A stretch of 64,000 nucleotides of DNA from Actinomucor elegans (lineage: Eukaryota; Mucoromycota; Mucoromycetes; Mucorales; Mucoraceae): positions 310,001 to 374,000 of the forward strand of contig JAMSLZ010000003.1 in NCBI GenBank assembly GCA_026027325.1, read 5' to 3'. Positions 13,357 through 47,311 of the stretch are shown here, one piece after another. The notes under the pieces were generated by a model. The model was not told the origin of the DNA and ran no database searches. It worked only from the letters and a program-made list of their open reading frames with translations. The first letter of the stretch is position 1; every line of letters starts with the position of its first letter. Made by a program: the position numbers and the translations under genes.

Positions 13357-13862
13357 TGTTGTAAAGGTGGTAGATAAAGATTTTGGAAGATAGAAATACT
13401 TTTAAAACTGTGGATAGTTTTTTATTAGAGATCAAGAATTGATTAACTGGTCAAAAGGTGATAAAACGCATCTCTTATATACTTTTTCTCGGTCGGTACT
13501 TGATTCTAAATTCATATTACGATTTGCCAGGAACAAGGTTGGACTGCGTATAAAGAAGACCAGGGATAATAACCAAATGAGCGGACCAAGATTAGCGGCG
13601 AGGAGTGTCGGGATCAATATATCCAAAGGTAATAGTATTGAATGTAATATTTGGTGTGAGAGATAGTATTTATCAATTAGCGTCTACTTGCTCAGAGTGA
13701 TATATAAATAAAGATATTTTAACATAATCAAATACAGTCATTTACATTCTGGTTCTTGGTAATAATGCTTTATACACTTCTGCAGCTATATATAAGGATA
13801 TCTATACGATTTTCTATCTGTACAGTATTCTCTTATTAATATAATTATGAGCGTTTACAACA
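13357..13862 (-). repeat. B1 LTR (3' LTR of the minus-strand element)
   Basis: 506 bp, TG...CA ends extended to a 9-bp inverted pair (TGTTGTAAA/TTTACAACA). An open frame of 75 codons inside (13439-13666 plus) recurs in all four B LTRs and is a by-product of their identity. Confidence 0.95.
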
Positions 13863-14045
13863 TTATCCTCCACCAGAATCAAACAAACTTGTATTGATTC
13901 GGCAAGTGCGTCAGTTCCACCAAATAGTACATTCATGCGGCTGAGTTTTGATTAACACGCTCAGGTATACCTCCTTTTACGCACCAATTCAGGGTCTTTT
14001 CTTGCATCGTGGCTTTTCTTGGTTCTTGTTTCATAACTTGCCTAC

Positions 14046-17000
14046 TTATTCTATCTTTCTTTTCTTGTTTGAACGTCTATTCAGTATTCTCTCTTCTCTA
14101 CTCGTAGTGGCTGCAATATTTGCTCTTTTGTTTTTCGACATCTCGATCGCTACATTTGACATCTCATTCCCATTGCATTTAGGAATCTTGGAAGTTCCAA
14201 CTTTTTTGCGTCTGTTAGGTTCAGAGTTTTGAATTGACTGTTCGACTCTAGTTTGCTCTAAACGTCGTAATTCTCTTTGCTTATTCCAGTACCGTTGAAT
14301 GATAGTTGGATCGGTGAAATCACTTGCTTTTTGCCAAGTATTTTCTTTCTCAGAATAACCTTTCCACTTAATCAAGTATTCTCGATGACCTTCTTCACCT
14401 CGATGATCACGGATACCTTCGACTTCGTAGTATTCTTCTTCGATACTAGACTCATCCAGGGTAACGACTTTCAATTCTGACGGTACATAGTTTCGGGATA
14501 ATAATTCATTCTGTTCATCCTTTAGTTCATACGATCCACCAGTATTTCTTCGAACAACAGTGTAAGGTCCCTCATAAATCGGAGCTAACTTACTAGATCG
14601 ATTCTGTAATCTGATCATGACATGCGTTCCAACTGGAATGTCGACAAGAACACTCTTTTGATTGAACTTTTTGTTGTATTCCTCATTTATCTTCTGAGTT
14701 CTTTCGAGGATGGCTGGGAATACGATCTTATCCATGTAATCTACGCGTTCTTCCAACTCTCGCATGGTCATAGACTCGATGGGTAGTTTGAACTTCTTCT
14801 CGTTACCGTAGTCATCAGGTAAGTTGACTCTACGTGCAAACATCAAGGAGAAGGGAGAACTCATAGTTTTTGCTTTAATGTGTCGGTTCATGCAGAGCTG
14901 TATGATAGGAAGATAATACGCCCAACTATGACTGTCTGACTTCATCATTTTTCTTAACGTGTTAGTTGCGGTACGAACTGCATTTTCCGCTGCTCCATTT
15001 GCTCGAGGATGATATGGCGTAGTATATCTTCTATCAATTCCTAGGTTCTTCGAAATACTGTTCATCACAGCATTCTTGAACTCTAGACCATTATCAGACT
15101 GGCAAATACGTGGAACACCAAAATCACCATAGACTCTGACCAACTCTTTTGCAACAGTATCGGATTGTTTGTTCTTCAGAGGTCTGAGAATAACGAATTT
15201 CGAACAAATATCTGTTATAACCAACATGTAAACATATCCTTCTTCAGTTACGTCAAAAGGTCCAGCCAAGTCGATAGCAATATGATCAAATGGTCGGTTG
15301 GCTACAACATTAGATAATGGGTGATAACCTCTCTTACTGATGTTGTGCTTTTGACATTCAACACACGAACTAACAATGTCTTTTGCTTCTGCGTAGATAT
15401 TCGCCCAATGGAGACCTTGTGAATGTAAATCTCGCACAATTGCTTGCGATCCAAAGTGTCCAAATGCATGCGCTTCTTTCAACAGAGCATCTCTCTCTTC
15501 TTCAGGAGGAGTCATATAGTCAGTCAGCTCATCTTTTCTTTCAACTAGTTTAGTCGCGAGTACGTTAATCGTTTTATCTCGGCTAAATCGCTTTTTTCTA
15601 ATGATGGCTTTCTTTTTAGGGCTTCGTCTGATGATTTTGCTCGTAACACTATCCTCCACCAGTTTGTTTTCATCTTCTAAAGGTGAATACAAACGGCTCA
15701 GAATATCAGGCAATTTGTTCAATATACCGGGGATGTGCACTACATCAAAATCAAAATCCAGAAGAGTCTCGATCCATCCAATTAACATGGGATTTGCGAT
15801 CTTTTGCGTATGTAAGTATACTAGTGCCTTGTGATCTGTAAATACAGTGAACTTTTTGCCCCATATATACTTGCGAAACTTCAGTAATGCTAACACGACT
15901 GCATACAATTCTCTTTTAGTAGTGCTCCAACGGCGTTGTGAAGGTGACAAGGAGCTCGATACAAATCCTATGTAAAGATCTTGGCCGGCCTCATTCTTTT
16001 GAAACAACACTGCCGCGACACCATAAAGTGATGCGTCTGTAGCTACGTAAAACTGTTTTGACAAATCCGGATAATGCAGCATCATCTTCGACTGCAAAAT
16101 CTCTTTGATAGTTTCAAAGCTCTTAGTGTGACGATCGGTCCACAGCTCTTCCACATTCTCTGCATTCACTAAACTGGTGAGTGGTTCTGCTACTCTGGAA
16201 ATCATCGGAACGAATTCTCTCAGGTAATTGACCAAACCCATAAATTGCTGGATGTGTTTCTTATTTTTATTTGGAAGTGGCCACTTTGAAACATTGGTAA
16301 GTTTTGATTGATCCACACGAACTCCTGAAGCGTCCACTACAAATCCCAACATACGAACTGAATGTTGAAACCATGAACACTTGGATTCTTTCAGGATTAA
16401 ATTTGCGGAATTTAATCTGTCAATCACAAACTTTACATCTTTTGCATGCTGTTCGATACTTTCACTGGCAACAATACAGTCATCCACGAAGTTCTGAACG
16501 CAATCAATACCTTCAAACAAGGTTGCCATGACCTTTTGAAATTGCGAGGTTAGCATTTTCACTCCAAAGCACGCTTTTTGAAAGGAAAAGCCATTGCCAT
16601 TATAAGTAAACGATAGCTTGTGTACATCCTCGGGTGCCACTTTGAATCGATGATATGCATTCGACAAATCCAAAGTTGTAAACACTTTTTTACCGGCCAA
16701 GTTATCAAAGATATCCTTAACCAAAGGTACGGGAAAATTGAATGTTGGAGGTAGAATTTGATTCAACGATCTCACATCTAAACACGCTCTATGGCTCACA
16801 ATCTCACCATCTTTGTTACGTTTAGGAACAAGCAGTAATGGGCTGTTGAATGACGTGTTTACTCGGGATCGAATGATTGTGCCTGTTTCCAACCATTCTT
16901 TTATTTGCTTATCGAGAACTGGTCTTAATGCATAAGGGATGGGGTATTGACGTCTATACGCCGTTGCACCCTCTTTCGTAGGTAATCGAACAATGGATTC

Positions 17001-18389
17001 AGGCAAAGGACATGAAGATGTTATAGGTATGCTCTGATTAATCTCTAGTGATTCTTTAATTATACTCATGAACTCTGCTCTTTGCTCAGGCGTACCAGCA
17101 GGCGAATTGTCAGGTTCATGTTTTCTTTCACGTTCAATGTTCAAGTTTTCAAAAATAGCTTCATCACTCAAGGCAGCGTCAGAATGTGCATGATCATCTT
17201 TGATGCGAAAAGCCACTCCAGTTAATCCGATATTCATTTTGGGAAGAATATCTGTGCCAAGAAGAATATCAAACTCGAATCCGTCGTTAAAGTTCATTAC
17301 TTCAAATGAGTGTTTGAACTTAATGCCATTTGCATACTTTATTTCCAAAGGATCGGTGATACCAATTCTCTTTGCAGTATTTTGATGAGACAAGAAATTA
17401 TAAGAACCAGGTAATTTATGTACTTTATTTATATGAAGTTTATTCTTCAAAGAAGACAAACTAACAAAGCTACAACTACTTCCTGTATCTACGCGTCCCA
17501 GGAGACGTTCAGACTCTACAATCAACGGTGTACATAAATTAAATGCGTCATTAGCCTTTAATTTGTCACTCTTCTTGTTCTCATTCAGGTACTTACATTG
17601 ATAGCTCTGATTCTCAATCTCGGAGTCGGCCATCTCCAAGTCCTCTTGAACTTGCTGCTCAATTGACTTCTCACTCGAGGAAGCCGCAGGCATCACAGCC
17701 AAGACAGTACTGCTACTACTGCTTTCAGCAGCACCACAACGATGACCAGGACGCCATGGAGACACACCACAAGTCCAACACTCTTTACCCTTCGCCTTCT
17801 TCACAGAAGGAGGGCGTTCAGCTCTTCTCTTAGCGAGAAAACAATCCTTGGTGTCATGGGTCGCATTGTTACCATGATGGATGCACGAAAAGGGTTTCGC
17901 CACCTTACTCGCCTTTTGCACCCGACGAGCTGCATTCTTGTGATGATGGTGATAGGGGGCCTTTTCTTTGCGTCGCTCAACAACAGGCGCACCAGGAAGA
18001 AGAGAAACAGCCTCATTATACGACGTATGGTCGTCACCAAGAATATCACGACCAATCTGTGCGATTTGATCGACAGTGTATTCAGCATTCTCACCAGAAG
18101 ATCCAGCCTTCACTGAATTCATTGCAACTCTGATCAGCGTCTGAACAGGTTTGGTCAGCGAGGCCAAAAAACGATCAGCTACTCTAGGACACTCTCTAGG
18201 TAGGCCTGCATCAAACATTGCTGTTTGAAAACGCTTAGCATAGTCGCCCACCGACTCATTGTTTTCCATTACCATGGTAAACACAAGGTCAGTATATCTT
18301 CTCAACACAAGGGAAGAACCGTGCTGCTTCTTAAACTCTCTACGAGCATCTGCCCATAGGGTACAACCTCTACTCAGCTCATCTTTCAC
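14046..18389 (-). pseudogene. B1 pol part of gag-pol (frameshifted off gag)
   Basis: 1,447-codon frame with, in order: late gag, a Cys/His knuckle (CWTCG...GHRC), aspartic protease (VDTGSS), reverse transcriptase (NFVDDCIVAS active site), RNase H (VATDASLYG), zinc-binding HHCC and integrase core (IAIDLAGPF, CQSDNGLEF, NGAAENAV), and a C-terminal chromodomain (YLIKWKGYSEKENTW). In B2 the same protein is fused to the N-terminal gag in one 1,641-aa frame. Here a 2-nt insertion near 18393 separates them, so this copy should not make the fusion protein unless a frameshift restores it. Confidence 0.9.
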
Positions 18390-18973
18390 CCAGATGCTTT
18401 ATCGCCATGGGGAAGGCAAAGGGGTAAGAAGTTCTTCCACACCTCATCAATGGACATGGAAGAAGACTCAACTACATCCTCAAATTCTCTCAAAAAATGC
18501 TCAACAGACTCGAAGGCTTCGTAACCTGGAAAAGGTTTGACAGCCGAGGTCAAGAGTTGGAACTTGGGCAAGTCGCGACGATTCAATGTCAAACCAGTAG
18601 GTGGCTTAACACGATCAACCTCACCGATCAATGAACTGCACTCTTGGATCTCACGGAGCATCCTCTTGGAGCGTTCAAGGGCCAACAAGGCTTCATCAGC
18701 CGCTACGTCATCTCTGACTACACGAGCACGACTAAACGCTTGAAGGTATCGGGTAATATCTGCACGGAGCCCGGCGATATTTGTGTCAATCAGTTGTGGG
18801 TCAGTCATGTCAGCAACAGCATGCTCAGCCGACTCAGACAACAAAGAACTAGCACCAGGAGACTTGATAAACTCATCAAGGTTGCTTGACAAGGTCGATT
18901 CATCAAACATGGGGGTGTCAGGGTTAACACCACAGTTGGCAGAAGAAGAACCAGAAACGTTGTTGGAAGCCAT
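18386..18973 (-). pseudogene. B1 gag N-terminal fragment (195 codons)
   Basis: Starts MASNNVSGSSS at 18973 and matches B2 residues 1 to about 193. It ends prematurely at 18386 because the run CACCCATGC of B2 reads CACCCAGATGC here (two extra bases). The protein is the capsid-like Gag start; the remaining Gag is in the other frame. Confidence 0.9.
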
Positions 18974-19017
18974 ATCGATAAAAGTAAGGAAATAGGACAG
19001 TAATTAAAAGTAAAAAA

Positions 19018-19523
19018 TGTTGTAAAGGTGGTAGATAAAGATTTTGGAAGATAGAAATACTTTTAAAACTGTGGATAGTTTTTTATTAGAGATCAAGAAT
19101 TGATTAACTGGTCAAAAGGTGATAAAACGCATCTCTTATATACTTTTTCTCGGTCGGTACTTGATTCTAAATTCATATTACGATTTGCCAGGAACAAGGT
19201 TGGACTGCGTATAAAGAAGACCAGGGATAATAACCAAATGAGCGGACCAAGATTAGCGGCGAGGAGTGTCGGGATCAATATATCCAAAGGTAATAGTATT
19301 GAATGTAATATTTGGTGTGAGAGATAGTATTTATCAATTAGCGTCTACTTGCTCAGAGTGATATATAAATAAAGATATTTTAACATAATCAAATACAGTC
19401 ATTTACATTCTGGTTCTTGGTAATAATGCTTTATACACTTCTGCAGCTATATATAAGGATATCTATACGATTTTCTATCTGTACAGTATTCTCTTATTAA
19501 TATAATTATGAGCGTTTACAACA
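19018..19523 (-). repeat. B1 LTR (5' LTR of the minus-strand element)
   Basis: 506 bp, same as 13357-13862. On the minus strand it is followed by TTTTTTACTTTTAATTACTG and then the gag start. Confidence 0.95.
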
Positions 19524-19829: not shown

Positions 19830-20117
19830 GAGGAATAGTTATTATCTTTAATATATTTTAATAATTCTAAAGATATATAAAACATATTATAAAATATAAA
19901 GTTTTTGTTTTTTTATATCAATTTAAAATCTTTCATAATAATAATTTATTGTATCATTATAAAAGTTACTGTATCGCTAAATATAAAAAATGGTCAGTGA
20001 GGGAGTCTGACGTGTGAAGGTAAGCAAAGTGCAACCTTCTGGACTGTGTGTGTGGTATCATGATATTCAGAGGTTGTGAATATGCTTGATACGTGATAGT
20101 GGAGCAGATAGTTCCTC
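19830..20117 (+). repeat. Left direct terminal repeat of F
   Basis: 288 bp, same orientation as 21860-22147 with no difference I can see. The first half is very AT-rich. The second half is less so and contains two hairpins: GAAGGT...ACCTTC, and a longer one at 20055-20092. Confidence 0.9.
20055..20092 (+). other. Hairpin in the F terminal repeat
   Basis: GTATCATGATATTC pairs with GAATATGCTTGATAC around a 7-nt loop region (one bulge or mismatch), about 14 bp of stem, 25 bp from the repeat end. An identical hairpin is in the right repeat at 22085-22122. It could be a recognition or nicking site (inference). Confidence 0.6.
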
Positions 20118-20166
20118 TTATTAAAATTTCCTAAAAATTGAATTTTACTATTAGAATAAAAGTATC

Positions 20167-20541
20167 ATGGAAATAAACTATAATTTTTATTATTCTGTAG
20201 TTTTAACTATAGGACCTGATAAAAAAGATATCAAAGGAAAAAGTGAGGAGTATATTCTTGGAAAATTATTGGATTGGGCAAATAGAATAAAGGATATAAA
20301 TGAAATATTAAATAAAGGACCATATTTGGATATAGGTGGAAATGGAAATTTACATGTAAATATGACACTATGTTCAAATAATATAAATAATGTAGAAGAA
20401 ATAAGAAAAAAACATTTTATGTCATGGATAAGAACCAAAGGTTTTGTTGAAATTTCCCATACTAGAGATTTAGTAAAGTGGAATGAATATGCAGAAAGAA
20501 ATCATTATGATTTGTTAATAAAAAATATGATGAATAAATAA
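20167..20541 (+). CDS. Rep-like (HUH-like) companion protein of element F, 124 aa
   Basis: Small basic protein conserved between F and C. Seen: a hydrophobic strand SVVLTIGP (residues 10-17), GNLHVNMTL (60-68) and NEYAERNH (106-113). Known: CRESS-type Rep HUH endonucleases have motif I (FTLNNP), motif II (HLQ) and motif III (YxxK) at similar spacing, about 45 residues apart. The C homologue reads VVLTLNP, NIHANL and DYAKRNH. Inferred: a Rep-like domain with HxN instead of HUQ and with the Lys of YxxK replaced or shifted, so activity is uncertain. It lies 42 nt upstream of the transposase on the same strand. PIF/Harbinger elements also carry a second DNA-binding ORF, which is the main alternative role. 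Confidence 0.6.
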   Translation: MEINYNFYYSVVLTIGPDKKDIKGKSEEYILGKLLDWANRIKDINEILNKGPYLDIGGNGNLHVNMTLCSNNINNVEEIRKKHFMSWIRTKGFVEISHTRDLVKWNEYAERNHYDLLIKNMMNK

Positions 20542-20583
20542 ATTTTATAAATATGCAAAAATTGAATTTCCATTATATATAAA

Positions 20584-21852
20584 ATGAATGAAGTAATATT
20601 ACAAGAAAAAATAAATATAGAAATTGATAAAATTATATATGAACATTGGGCTTTTTTAGATAAATCTTACAATAAAGTTAAAAAAAAATACTATCATAGA
20701 ACAGAATTAAAAGATATAACAGGAATTGATCTCATTAAAAGTCAAATATATGACAGGTTGGGATATGCTCCTGTATTTTTCTTTTTAAATGAATTATTCT
20801 GTGATAGAGATTATAAAGGTGGTGCTTATAGGCTTGCCGAAAAAGGATTACTGCTTTTGTATCAGATTTTATACGGAAAGTCTTTAAGAGATATGGGTAG
20901 TATTATACCATATTCTAGCTATTATGAAATTTACAAAGATTTTTGGTTAAGTGAAAATGCAAATACATTAAATAAAAAAATAGATTATATGTTAGAAAAT
21001 ATGTTTTCAAATATTAAAGTTAGAATATTAAGCTCAAAATTATATAATCCTAATCCATTTAAACATGTGACTTTGTTATTAGATGGCCATGACTCAAGAA
21101 TTGAATATCAAAATATAAATATTCATAAAAAAGAATTATATTCATATAAGTTTAAAAAACCTGGTGTTAGAACACAAGTTTTAACTGATATTAATGATAT
21201 GATTATAAGTATATCAAATAGTAAATATTGTAAAAATAATGTAGATGGAGAAATGTTTTTAAAAATGAAGATAGAAAATATTATTGAAAAAGAGGATTGT
21301 ATTGCTTTTGATGGTGGATATTATTATTATATTGACAGATTTATAGAAAATTTCACAGATTATAATTACCAAAATTTTACATATCCTTATAGAAAAAGCA
21401 AAAACATTGAAATGACAAATGAGAAATTAGAATTTAACAAAATGTTTGGTTCATACAGATCAAAAATTGAAACTGTTTTTGCTGATGTGGGAAATAAATT
21501 TAATAAATTTGATAACACAAAATCAGTCACAAAAACTACTAATATTAAAAGTTTTACCCTACAATTTAAAGTAGCTTGTTTACTGACAAATATAAAACGA
21601 TTTTTAGAAAAATATAATTTAGAAATAAATGAACATGTAAAATTATGGCAAAATATCAAATTTGATTATGTTTATAGAGATAATTCTGATAATAATAATG
21701 AAAATGTAGATTTTGAAGAAATATATTATAATGAAAATTATAAAGATATTATAGAAATACAAAATAATTTATTGGATTTAAATATTGATAAAAATAAAAA
21801 ATTTAAAAAATTACAACCCAAAATAGTTATAGAGTCTATGGAAGAATTATAG
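20584..21852 (+). CDS. DDE transposase of element F, 422 aa (Harbinger/DDE_Tnp_4-like)
   Basis: Single-exon transposase. The N-terminal ~160 residues are probably DNA-binding. The catalytic part has LLLDGHDSR (D167), TDINDM (about 202-205), NNVDGEM (D221), IAFDGGY (D243) and SYRSKIETVF (E296). The R-x-x-IE near the last catalytic Glu and the DG-x-H start match DDE_Tnp_4 endonucleases of the IS5/Harbinger group. The element's 3-bp target duplication also fits that superfamily. Which of D221 or D243 is the second catalytic Asp cannot be decided by eye. It ends KIVIESMEEL, without the chromodomain found in element C. Confidence 0.8.
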   Translation: MNEVILQEKINIEIDKIIYEHWAFLDKSYNKVKKKYYHRTELKDITGIDLIKSQIYDRLGYAPVFFFLNELFCDRDYKGGAYRLAEKGLLLLYQILYGKSLRDMGSIIPYSSYYEIYKDFWLSENANTLNKKIDYMLENMFSNIKVRILSSKLYNPNPFKHVTLLLDGHDSRIEYQNINIHKKELYSYKFKKPGVRTQVLTDINDMIISISNSKYCKNNVDGEMFLKMKIENIIEKEDCIAFDGGYYYYIDRFIENFTDYNYQNFTYPYRKSKNIEMTNEKLEFNKMFGSYRSKIETVFADVGNKFNKFDNTKSVTKTTNIKSFTLQFKVACLLTNIKRFLEKYNLEINEHVKLWQNIKFDYVYRDNSDNNNENVDFEEIYYNENYKDIIEIQNNLLDLNIDKNKKFKKLQPKIVIESMEEL

Positions 21853-21859
21853 TAAATAA

Positions 21860-22147
21860 GAGGAATAGTTATTATCTTTAATATATTTTAATAATTCTAA
21901 AGATATATAAAACATATTATAAAATATAAAGTTTTTGTTTTTTTATATCAATTTAAAATCTTTCATAATAATAATTTATTGTATCATTATAAAAGTTACT
22001 GTATCGCTAAATATAAAAAATGGTCAGTGAGGGAGTCTGACGTGTGAAGGTAAGCAAAGTGCAACCTTCTGGACTGTGTGTGTGGTATCATGATATTCAG
22101 AGGTTGTGAATATGCTTGATACGTGATAGTGGAGCAGATAGTTCCTC
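21860..22147 (+). repeat. Right direct terminal repeat of F
   Basis: 288 bp, matches 19830-20117. It starts eight bases after the transposase stop codon (21852), so it probably also serves as 3' UTR. Hairpin at 22085-22122. Confidence 0.9.
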
Positions 22148-36816: not shown

Positions 36817-37322
36817 TGTTGTAAAGGTGGTAGATAAAGATTTTGGAAGATAGAAATACTTTTAAAACTGTGGATAGTTTTTTATTAGAGATCAAGAATT
36901 GATTAACTGGTCAAAAGGTGATAAAACGCATCTCTTATATACTTTTTCTCGGTCGGTACTTGATTCTAAATTCATATTACGATTTGCCAGGAACAAGGTT
37001 GGACTGCGTATAAAGAAGACCAGGGATAATAACCAAATGAGCGGACCAAGATTAGCGGCGAGGAGTGTCGGGATCAATATATCCAAAGGTAATAGTATTG
37101 AATGTAATATTTGGTGTGAGAGATAGTATTTATCAATTAGCGTCTACTTGCTCAGAGTGATATATAAATAAAGATATTTTAACATAATCAAATACAGTCA
37201 TTTACATTCTGGTTCTTGGTAATAATGCTTTATACACTTCTGCAGCTATATATAAGGATATCTATACGATTTTCTATCTGTACAGTATTCTCTTATTAAT
37301 ATAATTATGAGCGTTTACAACA
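36817..37322 (-). repeat. B2 LTR (3' LTR)
   Basis: 506 bp; same as the B1 LTRs by eye. Confidence 0.95.
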
Positions 37323-37505
37323 TTATCCTCCACCAGAATCAAACAAACTTGTATTGATTCGGCAAGTGCGTCAGTTCCACCAAATAGTACATTCATGCGG
37401 CTGAGTTTTGATTAACACGCTCAGGTATACCTCCTTTTACGCACCAATTCAGGGTCTTTTCTTGCATCGTGGCTTTTCTTGGTTCTTGTTTCATAACTTG
37501 CCTAC

Positions 37506-40500
37506 TTATTCTATCTTTCTTTTCTTGTTTGAACGTCTATTCAGTATTCTCTCTTCTCTACTCGTAGTGGCTGCAATATTTGCTCTTTTGTTTTTCGACA
37601 TCTCGATCGCTACATTTGACATCTCATTCCCATTGCATTTAGGAATCTTGGAAGTTCCAACTTTTTTGCGTCTGTTAGGTTCAGAGTTTTGAATTGACTG
37701 TTCGACTCTAGTTTGCTCTAAACGTCGTAATTCTCTTTGCTTATTCCAGTACCGTTGAATGATAGTTGGATCGGTGAAATCACTTGCTTTTTGCCAAGTA
37801 TTTTCTTTCTCAGAATAACCTTTCCACTTAATCAAGTATTCTCGATGACCTTCTTCACCTCGATGATCACGGATACCTTCGACTTCGTAGTATTCTTCTT
37901 CGATACTAGACTCATCCAGGGTAACTACTTTCAATTCCGACGGTACATAGTTTCGGGATAATAATTCATTCTGTTCATCCTTTAGTTCATACGATCCACC
38001 AGTATTTCTTCGAACAACAGTGTAAGGTCCCTCATAAATCGGAGCTAACTTACTAGATCGATTCTGTAATCTGATCATGACATGCGTTCCAACTGGAATG
38101 TCGACAAGAACACTCTTTTGATTGAACTTTTTGTTATATTCCTCATTTATCTTCTGAGTTCTTTCGAGGATGGCTGGGAATACGATCTTATCCATGTAAT
38201 CTACGCGTTCTTCCAACTCTCGCATGGTCATAGACTCAATGGGTAGTTTGAACTTCTTCTCGTTCCCGTAGTCATCAGGTAAGTTGACTCTACGTGCAAA
38301 CATCAAGGAGAAGGGAGAACTCATAGTTTTTGCTTTAATGTGTCGGTTCATGCAGAGCTGTATGATAGGAAGATAATACGCCCAACTATGACTGTCTGAC
38401 TTCATCATTTTTCTTAACGTGTTAGTTGCGGTACGAACTGCATTTTCCGCTGCTCCATTTGCTCGAGGATGATATGGCGTAGTGTATCTTCTATCAATTC
38501 CTAGGTTCTTCGAAATACTGTTCATCACAGCATTCTTGAACTCTAGACCATTATCAGACTGGCAAATACGTGGAACACCAAAATCACCATAGACTTTGAC
38601 CAACTCTTTTGCAACAGTATCGGATTGTTTGTTCTTCAGAGGTCTGAGAATAACGAATTTCGAACAAATATCTGTTATAACCAACATGTAAACATATCCT
38701 TCTTCAGTTACGTCAAAAGGTCCAGCCAAGTCGATAGCAATATGATCAAATGGTCGGTTGGCTACAACATTAGATAATGGGTGATAACCTCTCTTACTGA
38801 TGTTGTGCTTTTGACATTCAACACACGAACTAACAATGTCTTTTGCTTCTGCGTAGATATTCGCCCAATGGAGACCTTGTGAATGTAAATCTCGCACAAT
38901 TGCTTGCGATCCAAAGTGTCCAAATGCATGCGCTTCTTTCAACAGAGCATCTCTCTCTTCTTCAGGAGGAGTCATATAGTCAGTCAGCTCATCTTTTCTT
39001 TCAACTAGTTTAGTCGCGAGTACGTTAATCGTTTTATCTCGGCTAAATCGCTTTTTTCTAATGATGGCTTTCTTTTTAGGGCTTCGTCTGATGATTTTGC
39101 TCGTAACACTATCCTCCACCAGTTTGTTTTCATCTTCTAAAGGTGAATACAAACGGCTCAGAATATCAGGCAATTTGTTCAATATACCGGGGATGTGCAC
39201 TACATCAAAATCAAAATCCAGAAGAGTCTCGATCCATCCAATTAACATGGGATTTGCGATCTTTTGCGTATGTAAGTATACTAGTGCCTTGTGATCTGTA
39301 AATACAGTGAACTTTTTGCCCCATATATACTTGCGAAACTTCAGTAATGCTAACACGACTGCATACAATTCTCTTTTAGTAGTGCTCCAACGGCGTTGTG
39401 AAGGTGACAAGGAGCTCGATACAAATCCTATGTAAAGATCTTGGCCGGCCTCATTCTTTTGAAACAACACTGCCGCGACACCATAAAGTGATGCGTCTGT
39501 AGCTACGTAAAACTGTTTTGACAAATCCGGATAATGCAGCATCATCTTCGACTGCAAAATCTCTTTGATAGTTTCAAAGCTCTTAGTGTGACGATCGGTC
39601 CACAGCTCTTCCACATTCTCTGCATTCACTAAACTGGTGAGTGGTTCTGCTACTCTGGAAATCATCGGAACGAATTCTCTCAGGTAATTGACCAAACCCA
39701 TAAATTGCTGGATGTGTTTCTTATTTTTATTTGGAAGTGGCCACTTTGAAACATTGGTAAGTTTTGATTGATCCACACGAACTCCTGAAGCGTCCACTAC
39801 AAATCCCAACATACGAACTGAATGTTGAAACCATGAACACTTGGATTCTTTCAGGATTAAATTTGCGGAATTTAATCTGTCAATCACAAACTTTACATCT
39901 TTTGCATGCTGTTCGATACTTTCACTGGCAACAATACAGTCATCCACGAAGTTCTGAACGCAATCAATACCTTCAAACAAGGTTGCCATGACCTTTTGAA
40001 ATTGCGAGGTTAGCATTTTCACTCCAAAGCACGCTTTTTGAAAGGAAAAGCCATTGCCATTATAAGTAAACGATAACTTGTGTACATCCTCGGGTGCCAC
40101 TTTGAATCGATGATATGCATTCGACAAATCCAAAGTTGTAAACACTTTTTTACCGGCCAAGTTATCAAAGATATCCTTAACCAAAGGTACGGGAAAATTG
40201 AATGTTGGAGGTAGAATTTGATTCAACGATCTCACATCTAAACACGCTCTATGGCTCACAATCTCACCATCTTTGTTACGTTTAGGAACAAGCAGTAATG
40301 GACTGTTGAATGACGTGTTTACTCGGGATCGAATGATTGTACCTGTTTCCAACCATTCTTTTATTTGCTTATCGAGAACTGGTCTTAATGCATAAGGGAT
40401 GGGGTATTGACGTCTATACGCCGTTGCACCCTCTTTCGTAGGTAATCGAACAATGGATTCAGGCAAAGGACATGAAGATGTTATGGGTATGCTCTGATTA

Positions 40501-42431
40501 ATCTCTAGTGATTCTTTAATTATACTCATGAACTCTGCTCTTTGCTCAGGCGTACCAGCAGGCGAATTGTCAGGTTCATGTTTTCTTTCACGTTCAATGT
40601 TCAAGTTTTCAAAAATAGCTTCATCACTCAAGGCAGCGTCAGAATGTGCATGATCATCTTTGATGCGAAAAGCCACTCCAGTTAATCCGATATTCATTTT
40701 GGGAAGAATATCTGTGCCAAGAAGAATATCAAACTCGAATCCGTCGTTAAAGTTCATTACTTCAAATGAGTGTTTGAACTTAATGCCATTTGCATACTTT
40801 ATTTCCAAAGGATCGGTGATACCAATTCTCTTTGCAGTATTTTGATGAGACAAGAAATTATAAGAACCAGGTAATTTATGTACTTTATTTATATGAAGTT
40901 TATTCTTCAAAGAAGACAAACTAACAAAGCTACAACTACTTCCTGTATCTACGCGTCCCAGGAGACGTTCAGACTCTACAATCAACGGTGTACATAAATT
41001 AAATGCGTCATTAGCCTTTAATTTGTCACTCTTCTTGTTCTCATTCAGGTACTTACATTGATAGCTCTGATTCTCAATCTCGGAGTCGGCCATCTCCAAG
41101 TCCTCTTGAACTTGCTGCTCAATTGACTTCTCACTCGAGGAAGCCGCAGGCATCACAGCCAAGACAGTACTGCTACTACTGCTTTCAGCAGCACCACAAC
41201 GATGACCAGGACGCCATGGAGACACACCACAAGTCCAACACTCTTTACCCTTCGCCTTCTTCACAGAAGGAGGGCGTTCAGCTCTTCTCTTAGCGAGAAA
41301 ACAATCCTTGGTGTCATGGGTCGCATTGTTACCATGATGGATGCACGAAAAGGGTTTCGCCACCTTACTCGCCTTTTGCACCCGACGAGCTGCATTCTTG
41401 TGATGATGGTGATAGGGGGCCTTTTCTTTGCGTCGCTCAACAACAGGCGCACCAGGAAGAAGAGAAACAGCCTCATTATACGACGTATGGTCGTCACCAA
41501 GAATATCACGACCAATCTGTGCGATTTGATCGACAGTGTATTCAGCATTCTCACCAGAAGATCCAGCCTTCACTGAATTCATTGCAACTCTGATCAGCGT
41601 CTGAACAGGTTTAGTCAGCGAGGCCAAAAAACGATCAGCTACTCTAGGACACTCTCTAGGTAGGCCTGCATCAAACATTGCTGTTTGAAAACGCTTAGCA
41701 TAGTCGCCCACCGACTCATTGTTTTCCATTACCATGGTAAACACAAGGTCAGTATATCTTCTCAACACAAGGGAAGAACCGTGCTGCTTCTTAAACTCTC
41801 TACGAGCATCTGCCCATAGGGTACAACCTCTACTCAGCTCATCTTTCACCCATGCTTTATCGCCATGGGGAAGGCAAAGGGGTAAGAAGTTCTTCCACAC
41901 CTCATCAATGGACATGGAAGAAGACTCAACTACATCCTCAAATTCTCTCAAAAAATGCTCAACAGACTCGAAGGCTTCGTAACCTGGAAAAGGTTTGACA
42001 GCCGAGGTCAAGAGTTGGAACTTGGGCAAGTCGCGACGATTCAATGTCAAACCAGTAGGTGGCTTAACACGATCAACCTCACCGATCAATGAACTGCACT
42101 CTTGGATCTCACGGAGCATCCTCTTGGAGCGTTCAAGGGCCAACAAGGCTTCATCAGCCGCTACGTCATCTCTGACTACACGAGCACGACTAAACGCTTG
42201 AAGGTATCGGGTAATATCTGCACGGAGCCCGGCGATATTTGTGTCAATCAGTTGTGGGTCAGTCATGTCAGCAACAGCATGCTCAGCCGACTCAGACAAC
42301 AAAGAACTAGCACCAGGAGACTTGATAAACTCATCAAGGTTGCTTGACAAGGTCGATTCATCAAACATGGGGGTGTCAGGGTTAACACCACAGTTGGCAG
42401 AAGAAGAACCAGAAACGTTGTTGGAAGCCAT
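37506..42431 (-). CDS. Element B2 gag-pol polyprotein, 1,641 aa
   Basis: One open frame from MASNNVSGSSS. Gag ends with Cys/His motifs (CIHHGNNATHDTKDC and CWTCG...GHRC). Protease VDTGSSCS has its Asp at 495. The RT active site is FVDD at 828-831 (Phe-Val instead of the usual Tyr-Ile/Val). RNase H VATDASLYG lies near 977, the integrase DDE near 1234, 1289 and 1329, and the chromodomain at about 1512-1570 (YLIKWKGYSEKENTW). The tail after it is basic (NKKRKIE), possibly a nuclear signal. Intact and a candidate autonomous copy. It shares its target choice (other transposons near tRNA genes) with element A. Confidence 0.95.
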   Translation of the reverse strand: MASNNVSGSSSANCGVNPDTPMFDESTLSSNLDEFIKSPGASSLLSESAEHAVADMTDPQLIDTNIAGLRADITRYLQAFSRARVVRDDVAADEALLALERSKRMLREIQECSSLIGEVDRVKPPTGLTLNRRDLPKFQLLTSAVKPFPGYEAFESVEHFLREFEDVVESSSMSIDEVWKNFLPLCLPHGDKAWVKDELSRGCTLWADARREFKKQHGSSLVLRRYTDLVFTMVMENNESVGDYAKRFQTAMFDAGLPRECPRVADRFLASLTKPVQTLIRVAMNSVKAGSSGENAEYTVDQIAQIGRDILGDDHTSYNEAVSLLPGAPVVERRKEKAPYHHHHKNAARRVQKASKVAKPFSCIHHGNNATHDTKDCFLAKRRAERPPSVKKAKGKECWTCGVSPWRPGHRCGAAESSSSSTVLAVMPAASSSEKSIEQQVQEDLEMADSEIENQSYQCKYLNENKKSDKLKANDAFNLCTPLIVESERLLGRVDTGSSCSFVSLSSLKNKLHINKVHKLPGSYNFLSHQNTAKRIGITDPLEIKYANGIKFKHSFEVMNFNDGFEFDILLGTDILPKMNIGLTGVAFRIKDDHAHSDAALSDEAIFENLNIERERKHEPDNSPAGTPEQRAEFMSIIKESLEINQSIPITSSCPLPESIVRLPTKEGATAYRRQYPIPYALRPVLDKQIKEWLETGTIIRSRVNTSFNSPLLLVPKRNKDGEIVSHRACLDVRSLNQILPPTFNFPVPLVKDIFDNLAGKKVFTTLDLSNAYHRFKVAPEDVHKLSFTYNGNGFSFQKACFGVKMLTSQFQKVMATLFEGIDCVQNFVDDCIVASESIEQHAKDVKFVIDRLNSANLILKESKCSWFQHSVRMLGFVVDASGVRVDQSKLTNVSKWPLPNKNKKHIQQFMGLVNYLREFVPMISRVAEPLTSLVNAENVEELWTDRHTKSFETIKEILQSKMMLHYPDLSKQFYVATDASLYGVAAVLFQKNEAGQDLYIGFVSSSLSPSQRRWSTTKRELYAVVLALLKFRKYIWGKKFTVFTDHKALVYLHTQKIANPMLIGWIETLLDFDFDVVHIPGILNKLPDILSRLYSPLEDENKLVEDSVTSKIIRRSPKKKAIIRKKRFSRDKTINVLATKLVERKDELTDYMTPPEEERDALLKEAHAFGHFGSQAIVRDLHSQGLHWANIYAEAKDIVSSCVECQKHNISKRGYHPLSNVVANRPFDHIAIDLAGPFDVTEEGYVYMLVITDICSKFVILRPLKNKQSDTVAKELVKVYGDFGVPRICQSDNGLEFKNAVMNSISKNLGIDRRYTTPYHPRANGAAENAVRTATNTLRKMMKSDSHSWAYYLPIIQLCMNRHIKAKTMSSPFSLMFARRVNLPDDYGNEKKFKLPIESMTMRELEERVDYMDKIVFPAILERTQKINEEYNKKFNQKSVLVDIPVGTHVMIRLQNRSSKLAPIYEGPYTVVRRNTGGSYELKDEQNELLSRNYVPSELKVVTLDESSIEEEYYEVEGIRDHRGEEGHREYLIKWKGYSEKENTWQKASDFTDPTIIQRYWNKQRELRRLEQTRVEQSIQNSEPNRRKKVGTSKIPKCNGNEMSNVAIEMSKNKRANIAATTSREERILNRRSNKKRKIE

Positions 42432-42476
42432 ATCGATAAAAGTAAGGAAAATAGGACAGTAATTAAAAGTAAAAAA

Positions 42477-42982
42477 TGTTGTAAAGGTGGTAGATAAAGA
42501 TTTTGGAAGATAGAAATACTTTTAAAACTGTGGATAGTTTTTTATTAGAGATCAAGAATTGATTAACTGGTCAAAAGGTGATAAAACGCATCTCTTATAT
42601 ACTTTTTCTCGGTCGGTACTTGATTCTAAATTCATATTACGATTTGCCAGGAACAAGGTTGGACTGCGTATAAAGAAGACCAGGGATAATAACCAAATGA
42701 GCGGACCAAGATTAGCGGCGAGGAGTGTCGGGATCAATATATCCAAAGGTAATAGTATTGAATGTAATATTTGGTGTGAGAGATAGTATTTATCAATTAG
42801 CGTCTACTTGCTCAGAGTGATATATAAATAAAGATATTTTAACATAATCAAATACAGTCATTTACATTCTGGTTCTTGGTAATAATGCTTTATACACTTC
42901 TGCAGCTATATATAAGGATATCTATACGATTTTCTATCTGTACAGTATTCTCTTATTAATATAATTATGAGCGTTTACAACA
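42477..42982 (-). repeat. B2 LTR (5' LTR)
   Basis: 506 bp, ends TGTTGTAAA/TTTACAACA. On the minus strand TTTTTTACTTTTAATTACTG follows it. Confidence 0.95.
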
Positions 42983-44439
42983 CCAGGTTTCGGTAATAAA
43001 AATGAGTGAAGAGTCATAGAGGTAATCGGTAACTGTAGAAATGGCTTGACGAGCCATACCATTAGCGTTCCATATGGTTAAGGAGAGAGAGTTGGCGCAA
43101 GGAGTAAAAGGAGCGGAATGGGTTTCATAAGAGCGGTCATCCAGTGACTCACTCATTATTCAATGTTAACTGGTTCACCACCACCAGTTAAGGGCATAGA
43201 TCCAAGAGAAGAAGCAATGTCATCACCTTCTGACATAGCGTCATCTTCGTTGGGGACATCCTCCAGGGAACCACCAGCCAAAAGTACCTTCACCTGTTCA
43301 AGAGTCAAGAAACCTTGAAGCACAAAATCATGTGCTATCGAACCTCGTACATGTGAACGGATGTATTTGAGACCTCGAGCAAGACGGGCTTGTTGGAGCT
43401 CACGAGCCTTTTCCACACGTGCTTGGTTGTCAAGGGATGCATACGTAGGGTTATCCACATTGGTAGCAGCGAATTGGTCAAAGTCGGTAACCACCATGAT
43501 TTGTTCTTTTTTCAGGATGTCATGAACTTCCTGGGAATAGCCTCTATGGATCAAGAAAGCAGCAACACCACGGGCAGGATAGTGAACATCCAATACACGA
43601 CCACTATCAATATTAATGCGGCGTAACTTGGCACGAAACTTGGAGATACGCTCACGGTATTTGCTTGGTACATAAACATATTCGTACTGTGGTTCCTCTG
43701 GTGAACCAGGTGTAGGCAAAGCACGAGGTGATTCAAAATATCTTTTGACTGACTGTAGCGAAATCTTCTTTTTGCCTTTCTTTGCTGGAACCTTGATTGC
43801 CGCAACTTGTGAAAAGGTAAGCTTAGAACTTGGAGTACCAGTCTTGATACCAGTAGGGGCCCACTTGGATGCTTCAGTGCCTCCACAAGATGGCAACGAA
43901 AGTTGAGAATTACCTGGTAATGTAAATGAGAAATCGCCAGGTTCGCGAATTGAATCAGTCCCTTTACCACCCCAAGATGGGGAAGGGGAGATGTTTGAGG
44001 AAACTTGGCGTTTTAGTTCGGCGATTTCAGCGCGTGCTGCAGCAAGATCCTTCTTAAGCGTTGCATTTTCAGCAACCAATGATTCTAGCTGGTTGAACCG
44101 TTGATCATATCCGCGAAATTTTCTTTCCATGAATGTAAAAAGATCCGTTGTACTAGTAGAAGGACCCACCTCAAGGTCAGATGCATTAGTAAAGTTCATA
44201 TCTATATCCCTTGTTAGGGTTGGAAGTTCGATACCAAGTGCAGGCAGGTCAGTTTTTTGGCTATTGACACCACGGCTAGGCTTACCACTGGCAGGGGGAC
44301 CACGTAATAGTTTTTTCGTTCTACTGGTCATAGAAGAAGAAGGTGTCAAAACTGTTATAGGACGTTTAGAAGATGTTCTATAGTTCACTTCAAGTGGTTT
44401 GTTATCGCCAGGAGTATCGTTGTTCAAAGTTTCAGCTTT

Positions 44440-44660
44440 GAAGAACATTTAGTATTACAGAAATATGTTCAAAATAGTACAATATATAAAAAAATTAGGA
44501 AATAATAGATTTTTTTGAATACAAATAATAATATAAATAAATTTTATTCTAAAATAGAACAAGTAACCAACATTTTATTTATGGATAAAAAGGCAACATT
44601 ATATTTATGCCTTGATTTTTTAGGAAAGTTAAAAATATTAAGTAGTTGTAAATGTTTATC
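44440..44660 (+). repeat. Left direct terminal repeat of C2
   Basis: 221 bp, GAAGAACATTTA...TAAATGTTTATC. Confidence 0.9.
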
Positions 44661-44815
44661 TTGTCCTATTTTTAGACTTCCATTGCGTTTAATCACATTG
44701 AGAAATCTAAAAACAACTTCCTTGGCATCTAATTCTTGGCATGATATTTTGGAAAATATAAAAGTATCTATAATATTTGAGAATTATTTTTAAAATAACA
44801 TCAATATTATATTTA

Positions 44816-45184
44816 ATGGAAAAAATCTATTATTATGCTGTGGTTTTAACTCTAAATCCTGAAAAAAAAGATGTCAAGAATAAATCATCCGAAATATTAA
44901 ACAAGAAAATACTGCAATGGGTTGGAAATATAAAAAATATTGATAAAATTTTATATAGTGGTCCTTTCTATGATGTTGGTGAAAACAATACAAATATCCA
45001 TGCCAATTTAGTGATAAAAACAATTTTAGATGATAACGAAAAAGTTAGAAATGAATATTTCAAATCCTGGTGTTTAAGAAAAGGATATGTTAGTATTAAA
45101 GAAATTTATAATTTTAAATCATGGTTAGATTATGCAAAAAGAAATCATAAGTTCTTGGAAAATATAGAAAATATTAAAAATTGA
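44816..45184 (+). CDS. Rep-like (HUH-like) companion protein of element C, 122 aa
   Basis: Homologue of the 124-aa protein of element F, clearly alignable over its whole length. Motif-like blocks: YYYAVVLTLNPEKKD near the N-terminus (compare CRESS motif I FTLNNP), GPFYDVGENNTNIHANLVI in the middle (motif II region, His followed by x-Asn), and SWLDYAKRNHKF near the end (motif III Tyr region). The start at ATG 44816 is chosen since the open frame upstream has no ATG and the F homologue starts at the same relative point. The transposase ORF follows 90 nt later. The HUH assignment is my inference from motif order and spacing. Confidence 0.6.
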   Translation: MEKIYYYAVVLTLNPEKKDVKNKSSEILNKKILQWVGNIKNIDKILYSGPFYDVGENNTNIHANLVIKTILDDNEKVRNEYFKSWCLRKGYVSIKEIYNFKSWLDYAKRNHKFLENIENIKN

Positions 45185-45274
45185 ATTTTCATATATAAAT
45201 AAAAGTTTATTAAATATAGAAAATATTAAAAATTGAATTTCTCTTTATATAAAAATACATCATTTTATTTGTTT

Positions 45275-46711
45275 ATGAACACTCATATAGACTTATTAAT
45301 TGAAAATGAATACAGAAATATTTACAATAGGTATTGGAAATTTATGAAAAATGAATATATATATAAAGTTGAATTGAAATATCATAGATCTAAAATAACG
45401 AGTATACCAAATATTGATAGAATTAAAAAAAATATATATATTAAATTAGGAAGTATTGCTCCATTTGTATTTTTGACAGATTTATGTAACAATATAAAAC
45501 TACCAGGTCCATATATAACAGCAGATAAAGTATTGATATTATTAGAACATTTATTAAATGGAAAATCTATAAATGAAATGGAAATGTATATTCCATCTAC
45601 TAGTTTTTATAAATTATATCAATCATTATATATAAATAATTATGATTTATTGGAAAAATGGATAAATAATAAATTAGAAAAATGTTTTTCTACACATACA
45701 TTGAGATTACTTTGTGCTAAGAAATTTAATCCAATGATGTTAGATAATGTAACATTACTAATTGATGGTCACCATAATCGTATAACATATCAAGATATTA
45801 ATCTAGATAAAAAAGAGTTATTCTCGTATAAATTAAAAAGAAATGGATTAAATACACAATTTATTATAGATATTAATAGAATATGTGTTTATATATCTGA
45901 TTCCTTACCTTGTAGAAATAATACTGATGATAAAATGCTTTTAGACATAAATATCAATAAGTTTTATAATGAAATAGATTGTATATGTTTTGATGGATTA
46001 TATGAAAACACAGTAAAAGAATTTATAGAAAAATTTAGTAATATTGGATTTAATATATCCTTGAAAAATTTTTGCTATCCTATAAAAAAAGATAAAGGAG
46101 TTGAATTAACCATAGATGAAAAAAAATTCAATGAAGAATTAGGTGGATTAAGGTCAAAAATAGAAAAATATTTTGCAGAATTAGGTAGTATTTTTAAAAG
46201 ATTTAGTGGACAAAATAAGATTAGAATAACAGATAATAAGACATATAATATACAGCTAAAATTAGCAATAGTATTACTGAACATAAAATATTTTACAGAG
46301 TTATTTGGAATTGAAGAAAATGCCCATTACAACAAATGGCTAAATGATAATTTTGATTATTATTATAAAAATAATATTGAAATGAATAAAGAAGTAACAT
46401 TAAAAACACAATATAAAATAGAAAATATCGTTGATATAAAATCATTACAAAATCAATTTTTAAATAATTTAAATATAAATGAAGTGAATATAGATATTAT
46501 GGATCAAATGGAGGAAGATATCACTAGTAATAATGATCAAAATATATATGAAATACAATATATAATTAAACACAAAAAAGTAAAGAACTTATATGAATAT
46601 TTTGTAAAATGGAAAAAGTATGGTAAAGAACATAATTCATGGGTAAAAGAAAAAGATTTTACATCACATGATACTATTTTGAATTATTGGAAATCAATAG
46701 AAAATAATTAA
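45275..46711 (+). CDS. Chromodomain DDE transposase of C2, 478 aa
   Basis: Same protein as in C1 (22230-23666), with no amino-acid difference I can find. Catalytic candidates are D164, the Asp residues in NNTDDKM or CFDGLY, and E297. Chromodomain at residues ~425-475. The presence of two identical full-length frames in independent insertions (GTA and TTT target sites) indicates recent transposition of this family. Confidence 0.83.
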   Translation: MNTHIDLLIENEYRNIYNRYWKFMKNEYIYKVELKYHRSKITSIPNIDRIKKNIYIKLGSIAPFVFLTDLCNNIKLPGPYITADKVLILLEHLLNGKSINEMEMYIPSTSFYKLYQSLYINNYDLLEKWINNKLEKCFSTHTLRLLCAKKFNPMMLDNVTLLIDGHHNRITYQDINLDKKELFSYKLKRNGLNTQFIIDINRICVYISDSLPCRNNTDDKMLLDININKFYNEIDCICFDGLYENTVKEFIEKFSNIGFNISLKNFCYPIKKDKGVELTIDEKKFNEELGGLRSKIEKYFAELGSIFKRFSGQNKIRITDNKTYNIQLKLAIVLLNIKYFTELFGIEENAHYNKWLNDNFDYYYKNNIEMNKEVTLKTQYKIENIVDIKSLQNQFLNNLNINEVNIDIMDQMEEDITSNNDQNIYEIQYIIKHKKVKNLYEYFVKWKKYGKEHNSWVKEKDFTSHDTILNYWKSIENN

Positions 46712-46722
46712 TCAATTAATAA

Positions 46723-46943
46723 GAAGAACATTTAGTATTACAGAAATATGTTCAAAATAGTACAATATATAAAAAAATTAGGAAATAATAGATTTTTTTG
46801 AATACAAATAATAATATAAATAAATTTTATTCTAAAATAGAACAAGTAACCAACATTTTATTTATGGATAAAAAGGCAACATTATATTTATGCCTTGATT
46901 TTTTAGGAAAGTTAAAAATATTAAGTAGTTGTAAATGTTTATC
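46723..46943 (+). repeat. Right direct terminal repeat of C2
   Basis: 221 bp, as the left repeat; it starts 11 bases after the transposase stop. Confidence 0.9.
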
Positions 46944-47189
46944 TTTGTTTTGCAGTTCAATGTTCCCAGATGAACTAATTGTTGGAGATTGCGAGATGAG
47001 TTTTGTAAAATCTGGCGTAATTGCGTTCGAGTTTGACGAAATTTTGTCCAAATGATTCGAGAGTGGTATCAAAATGTCCGGAAGAGTTTGTTTTATCGTT
47101 TTATATAGGTGAAAGTGTAGGTTATTATTGCAGTTCTTGAGCTTTTTACGTTTTCGGAGTTTGAAACCGAAAAAAGTGATCAAGAAGTG

Positions 47190-47214
47190 AAAGAGAAGTG
47201 GTTTCTTGGTGTAG
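47190..47214 (+). repeat. LINE target duplication, right copy
   Basis: 25 bp identical to 25500-25524; overlaps the first 15 nt of the intact tRNA-Val. Confidence 0.88.
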
Positions 47215-47273
47215 TCGGTTATCACGTCTGCTTAACACGCAGACGGTCGGCGGTTCAAGTCCGCCAGAAATCA
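47200..47273 (+). tRNA. tRNA-Val (AAC)
   Basis: 74-nt cloverleaf: acceptor GGTTTCT/AGAAATC, D-arm with TGTAGTCGGTTATCAC, anticodon stem TCTGC/GCAGA with loop TTAACAC (anticodon AAC), T-arm GGCGGTTCAAGTCCGCC. A T5 run at 47276-47280 terminates it. The gene is complete, although its natural 5' flank now lies beyond the LINE; box A and box B are internal and preserved. Confidence 0.95.
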
Positions 47274-47311
47274 TATTTTTAATACTTCTTTATAATATAG
47301 TGCATGTAGTT

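Follow-up and report, generated by a model that had tools for sequence, protein, structure and literature searches.

Long terminal direct repeats around a Harbinger-like DDE transposase in the fungus Actinomucor elegans: a probable second case of the KolobokP architecture

The closest described system to the elements reported here is KolobokP, a group of the Kolobok superfamily found in animals. In the accessible text of Kojima and Bao (2022; PMC9587614), KolobokP elements have the plan LTDR-INT-LTDR, with a long terminal direct repeat (LTDR) on either side of INT, occur also as solo repeats and multimers, and make target site duplications (TSDs) of 3-5 bp. Some families appear not to encode the His-Me finger endonuclease, and one family shows LTDR-INT or INT-LTDR forms. 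The same text calls KolobokP unlike any other DNA transposon in its repeat architecture and leaves open how two long identical repeats are maintained in a DNA transposon (PMC9587614). Among the records listed by our literature searches there was no second case of this plan beyond KolobokP. Kolobok-superfamily transposases carry a C/DxxH motif and zinc fingers, and PIF/Harbinger elements have TWA TSDs and a Myb/SANT-like second protein. A preliminary description of the present locus had stated that no described superfamily combines its features; this was too broad, since the available account of KolobokP already includes the LTDR-INT-LTDR plan, the solos and the multimers.

The window analysed here is a stretch of 64,000 nucleotides, bases 310001-374000 of contig C21, from an A. 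elegans genome of 36.5 Mb in 27 contigs. A complete copy of the element that we call C (L083; 2,504 bp) occupies 44440..46943 on the + strand, with the TSD TTT at 44437-44439 and 46944-46946. Its plan is LTDR-INT-LTDR: the left repeat, LTDR1 (44440..44660, +), and the right repeat, LTDR2 (46723..46943, +), are identical over 221 bp, and each has its own inverted ends (GAAGAACATTTA / rc GATAAACATTTA; rc, reverse complement), which are imperfect and about 10-12 bp long. Both genes lie inside INT. ORF1 (44816..45184, +) encodes a small protein of 122 aa, ferredoxin-like/HUH-like by prediction, with an invariant H-x-N and Tyr; ORF2 (45275..46711, +) encodes a 478-aa DDE_Tnp_4 transposase (D164, D240, E297) with a C-terminal chromodomain. 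These were the only open frames of at least 120 aa in INT, neither matched a reverse transcriptase, and no gag was found in C.

Two further insertions of family C lie in the window. Copy 1 (L080, L081; 12902..23898, +; TSD GTA) is split by an LTR retrotransposon and by a second element, F, and a solo LTDR (L082; 27912..28132, +; TSD TAT) has its empty site in loci L012 and L027. Element F is complete (2,318 bp; 19830..22147, +; TSD ATA) and ends in identical LTDRs of 288 and 288 bp (19830-20117 and 21860-22147) with inverted ends GAGGAA. Its ORF1 is a 128-aa open frame and its ORF2 a 428-aa open frame of the DDE_Tnp_4 type, in which Pfam gave no chromodomain match. Repeat comparison thus confirmed what had first been described for both elements: the identical direct repeats of 221 and 288 bp, the inverted ends of each repeat and the 3-bp TSDs TTT, GTA and ATA. 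A tRNA-Val (AAC) gene is located at window positions 47199-47274, about 256 bp downstream of the complete C insertion.

For a genome-wide census, the left-end pattern of C was run on the whole genome with up to 2 mismatches allowed, and all 98 matches were fetched (59 regions). Left ends numbered 98 (97 exact, one with one mismatch) and right-end matches 96, while reversed control patterns gave 0 matches, showing that the ends of C are not chance occurrences. The left ends comprised 38 two-repeat loci, 15 solos, one interrupted copy (copy 1, in two regions) and 4 fragments. The lengths of the two-repeat loci were 2504 bp in 20, 2503 in nine, 2502 in four, 2501 in one and 2666 in one. The rest were a 4784-bp tandem dimer (L085) with the layout LTDR-INT-LTDR-INT-LTDR and two loci of 8675 bp that hold an LTR retrotransposon. 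Among 40 scored of 127 candidates, 36 matched at near-100% identity over all 2,504 bases. One copy (L071) has an extra 162 bp within the transposase gene, in a 547-aa open frame.

TSDs of 3 bp were present at 34 of the 38 two-repeat loci and at 13 of the 15 solos, extending to the genome what had been noted in the window. The two-repeat loci without a TSD were L046, L061, L074 and L075; the flanks of L074 are shared, one with L073 and one with L075, the pattern that recombination between copies would give. Identical 60 bases on either side mark L055/L065 and L089/L090 as duplicated segments, so independent insertions number slightly fewer than loci. Empty sites were sought with 357-base queries in which the flanks were joined with a single TSD copy. 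Matches of 99-100% identity that covered the query completely or almost completely were obtained for two-repeat loci L055, L056, L058, L060, L065, L073, L085 and L087 and for solos L045 and L082; for the remaining loci the sequence searched held no match or a partial one. Solo, monomer and dimer forms of C therefore all occur with TSDs and single-TSD empty sites, and the empty site of L085 indicates that the dimer occupies one target site. No precise LTDR-INT or INT-LTDR form was found among the 58 C insertions, with two left-end fragments (L048, L070) untraced.

Searches with the C and F transposases revealed many transposase families in the genome. Further families were sampled at five loci, one per family (L098, L099, L100, L101 and L102, the last selected because it carries ORF1). 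The LTDR plan was seen in L098 (49% identity to C, repeats of 402 and 401 bp), L100 (51%, 220 bp) and L101 (47%, 223 bp); all three elements have inverted ends that read GAGnnAC and are flanked by a direct duplication of at least 3 bp. Five families therefore have the plan (C, F, L098, L100 and L101; one element each read). Within an element the two LTDRs were identical in four families and one indel apart in the fifth. Between families, their global identity was 0.46-0.64, compared with 0.62 for one shuffled pair, and likeness was limited to the ends. Repeats that are identical within an element and unrelated between families imply that one LTDR is re-copied from the other.

A chance association of repeats was also considered. 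An LTDR carries inverted ends of its own and also occurs alone, as would be expected if the second repeat were an accidental neighbouring MITE. The copies of C and its sister families in this genome, together with their flanks, refute this reading, which we regard as extremely improbable: there are 38 two-repeat insertions of C with fixed internal junctions, 34 of them with the TSD on the outside, and the same plan recurs in four other families with unrelated LTDRs. The architecture is thus a property of a family of elements, as first proposed, and its presence in five families indicates inheritance of the plan. A midpoint-rooted tree built from 25 sequences separated F and L099 (35% identity to C) from C, L098, L100 and L101. 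The plan is accordingly likely to be old in the lineage, unless L099 lacks it and it arose twice.

Several observations concern other members of these families. F repeats with no F body were listed in the genome (G000) at C24:736, C10:737, C21:3609962 and C1:4977578 (288-296 bp, 100% reported identity); three of them are no more than about 1.1 kb from a contig end and the other is about 18 kb from one, which suggests a subtelomeric habit for F-type repeats. A foldback with 68-bp perfect arms and a 148-bp loop, present in either orientation, was found at L099:912-1352 and matched in several fetched loci.

ORF2 of C matched DDE_Tnp_4 (PF13359, E 1.9e-8) and the chromodomain (PF00385, E 8.7e-8), and PF13359 was above the gathering score in both C and F. 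The Harbinger-like transposase of the preliminary description was borne out in this way; the chromodomain is an addition to it. Both domains (DDE_Tnp_4 at E up to 0.01) were detected in 25/25 aligned ORF2 homologues, a set outside which F and L099 fall, and D164, D240 and E297 were invariant in 25 transposase sequences that include F and L099. Two Mucor flavus proteins were among the 70 transposase relatives.

In HUH proteins, a central strand bears paired polar residues and the catalytic Tyr lies in a later helix. The predicted model of ORF1 was ferredoxin-like (pLDDT 86, pTM 0.80), with elements E5-13, H25-37, E46-54, E61-69, E90-96 and H100-110, and H62, N64 and Y106 were invariant in 19 aligned ORF1 sequences. 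Against a viral structure library, four matches reached E 0.001, all without a name; the lower-ranked named matches included cressdna-, cruci- and microvirus replication proteins, and the Rep proteins were tied with other ferredoxin-like folds. Searches of Pfam, PHROGs and PDB sequences gave no Rep family match, and no Pfam family matched ORF1 at gathering score. At E up to 0.1, ORF1 had 24 relatives besides a near-identical one, none with a functional name. ORF1 may thus be called Rep-like only at the level of predicted fold and of the invariant HxN and Tyr.

ORF1 was not found in the loci of L098, L100 and L101, where repeats and transposase were present, i.e. in three of the five LTDR families. 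The two-gene cargo that was first described is accordingly true of C and F, and not of the copies of these three families that were read; its Rep-like character stands as fold and motif, not as sequence similarity to Rep. In this genome ORF1 occurred in C, in F and in a third family (L102; G000 C21:37500-38950) with 16 equal-score matches. The one L102 copy that was read has ORF1, ending just before the Tyr helix, and then an inverted transposase and chromodomain fragment; L102 is probably a rearranged, non-autonomous derivative.

Comparison with PIF/Harbinger places the C/F lineage close to that superfamily in its catalytic domain and TSD length: a DDE_Tnp_4 transposase with the triad D164/D240/E297, 3-bp TSDs and short inverted ends. 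Unlike PIF/Harbinger, it has long direct terminal repeats and a chromodomain, its TSD is rarely TWA (TAA or TTA at 4 of 47 TSD-bearing C loci), and ORF1 is not recognisable as a Myb-like partner (no Pfam match, ferredoxin-like predicted fold). By the features tested, the lineage appears Harbinger-like but not standard PIF/Harbinger.

As far as KolobokP is described in the accessible text (PMC9587614), the shared features are the LTDR-INT-LTDR plan with LTDRs that have their own short inverted ends (five families here), a DDE transposase and a small second protein in INT, the latter missing in some families of both, and solo LTDRs and (LTDR-INT)n-LTDR multimers with TSDs (here 15 solos, 13 with a TSD, and one dimer). 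Both also have short TSDs without strong target preference and ends in 5'-RR and YY-3'. The differences begin with the transposase, which here matches DDE_Tnp_4, a putative separation from Kolobok by Pfam match, and carries a C-terminal chromodomain in the C type. The second protein is Rep-like here and a His-Me homing endonuclease there; no Pfam match to a His-Me finger endonuclease was obtained with either ORF of C or F. LTDRs are 220-402 bp here and about 450 or 660 there, elements are 2.1-2.5 kb here and 4.0-4.7 kb there (autonomous, oyster), the host is a fungus and not an animal, and precise LTDR-INT or INT-LTDR forms were not found here. The lineage appears to work in the manner of KolobokP. 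With a different transposase family match and a different partner protein, the C/F lineage is probably a convergent second case of the KolobokP architecture. This suggests that the plan, seen in a seemingly separate DDE lineage, was not a one-off.

Differences among two-repeat copies of C consisted of A/T-run lengths, a few substitutions and larger insertions in single copies, and full-length, stop-free transposase coding was present at 26 places in the genome. C looks like a very recently active family. The 20 exact-length, near-identical copies in one genome offer young material for testing circles, solos and the inheritance of marked repeats. Counted by base, the 15 solo LTDRs had 6 substitutions and the 77 LTDRs from two-repeat loci had 2 (Fisher p 4e-4). 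Counted by locus, substitutions were present in 4 of 15 solos and 2 of 38 two-repeat loci (p 0.047); solos are thus older than monomers, marginally so at locus level. For L101, scoring covered the full set of 13 candidates. Four pairs lay 2,025 bp apart with 8/8 repeats 100% identical to the query, and unpaired repeats were three complete (100, 99 and 97%) and two partial (97 and 89%). For L098, with 40 of 108 candidates scored, there were at least 10 pairs; 20 other matches are not callable as solos, as their partners may be among the unscored.

The composite, KolobokP-like LTDR-INT-LTDR plan of C and its sisters is established by the copies. We lean tentatively, at close to an even chance, towards the reading that these autonomous DNA transposons, which belong to a Harbinger-like DDE lineage, move through a circle cycle. 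The transposase would recognise each LTDR as a unit, by its two inverted ends, as the ends themselves and the 3-bp TSDs around solos suggest. Recombination between LTDRs would yield a circle of INT with one LTDR and leave a solo LTDR with its TSD; such solos were observed. The transposase may then insert the circle through its single LTDR in a replicative, cointegrate-type reaction resembling that of IS26 translocatable units, a logic also raised for KolobokP in the accessible text of Kojima and Bao (PMC9587614), with Rep-like ORF1 perhaps assisting in some families. Copying of the LTDR would give a new insertion with two identical LTDRs and a 3-bp TSD. Tandem dimers, of which one was observed, could arise when a circle inserts into an LTDR already in place, or by unequal crossing-over. 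Release of a circle by repeat recombination and rebuilding of both repeats from a single one is most likely, though unproven.

The circle cycle would explain why repeats are identical within an element and unrelated between families, why solos and the dimer have TSDs, why monomers are young and solos older, and the sequences at the inner flanks described below. Against it, gene conversion or unequal crossing-over could equally hold LTDRs identical, Harbinger elements are taught as cut-and-paste, and TSDs are missing at 2/15 solos and 4/38 two-repeat loci. The circle is proposed from a single assembly, the inner-flank symmetry comes from five related families and the locus-level age difference is marginal. 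Bacterial IS26/IS6 translocatable units and pseudo-composite transposons likewise have direct repeats that bound a unit, a proposed one-repeat circle and solo and tandem forms; their transposase lies inside the repeat, whereas here it lies between repeats, and the likeness is one of architecture.

Reading outward from the inner LTDR ends, the two sides were TTG/TTA in C, TTA/TTA in F, TTA/TTA in L098, TAA/TAA in L100 and TAG/TAG in L101. T-W-R lay outward of 10/10 inner ends in the five families, with TWA at 7/10, in contrast to the TSDs at the outer ends of C (TWA at 4 of 47). The two sides agreed at 14 of 15 positions (binomial p 3e-6 against the 0.34 agreement measured over positions 4-43 as background), a statistic from five related, non-independent families. 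Re-pairing of families gave the same or higher agreement in 6 of 120 permutations (mean 10.4 of 15), which indicates that the signal is mostly the shared T-W-R consensus and not covariation. Relics of TSDs were considered and rejected, as a TSD would be direct and these flanks are mirrored. On a circle the transposase would encounter these inner flanks, which it would not do at the ends of a linear element; they may be part of the recognised end, under selection where an LTDR reacts with INT on both sides.

The main alternative is that the entire 2.5-kb element moves by cut-and-paste, using its outer ends, while gene conversion keeps the LTDRs identical and recombination or unequal crossing-over generates solos and dimers, as in LTR elements. 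We take this as a serious possibility, if a somewhat improbable one. The conserved T-W-R at all 10 inner ends is not predicted by it, and inner ends with the same recognition sequence should also give rise to LTDR-INT or INT-LTDR forms, of which the 58 insertions contained no precise example (two fragments untraced). It does accommodate the outer ends with their 3-bp TSDs and clean empty sites, the DDE_Tnp_4 transposase with its triad invariant in 25 sequences, and solos older than monomers, which fits slow recombination. In the accessible text, the KolobokP authors themselves propose canonical transposition with endonuclease-induced unequal crossover (PMC9587614).

ORF1 could instead be a working HUH Rep that replicates the INT and LTDR circle as a rolling circle, with the transposase cutting and integrating LTDR-(INT-LTDR)n, n = 0, 1 or 2, from concatemers. 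Solos, monomers and a dimer with TSDs are the expected series, and the ferredoxin-like model, the viral Rep structure matches and the invariant HxN and Tyr in 19 sequences agree with such a function. We nevertheless consider it unlikely: three of five LTDR families yielded no ORF1, its sequence matched no Rep family, and the units of dimer L085 differ slightly, in A-run lengths alone, which may be assembly errors.

Under the circle cycle, which we continue to favour tentatively, LTR-like architecture might have arisen in these elements for a second time, independently, among eukaryotic DNA transposons, with a circle carrying the transposase gene, optional HUH Rep-like amplification, replicative cointegrate integration, and identical repeats rebuilt at each jump without reverse transcription; we put this forward as conceivable but doubtful.

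Elements of the C type share identical direct terminal repeats, solo repeats and TSDs with LTR retrotransposons, and repeat-annotation programs could misfile them as such. They differ in the DDE_Tnp_4 transposase, in the inverted repeat ends of C, and in that no reverse transcriptase or gag was found. True LTR retrotransposons are also present in the window, one nested in C copy 1 (13357-19523, TSD CGAAA) and another at 36817-42982. The two are 6,167 bp long with 506-bp LTRs and 99.8% alike; reverse transcriptase, integrase and chromodomain were read in the first copy, which is Ty3-type by domain order. The same retrotransposon also splits C copies L074 and L084.
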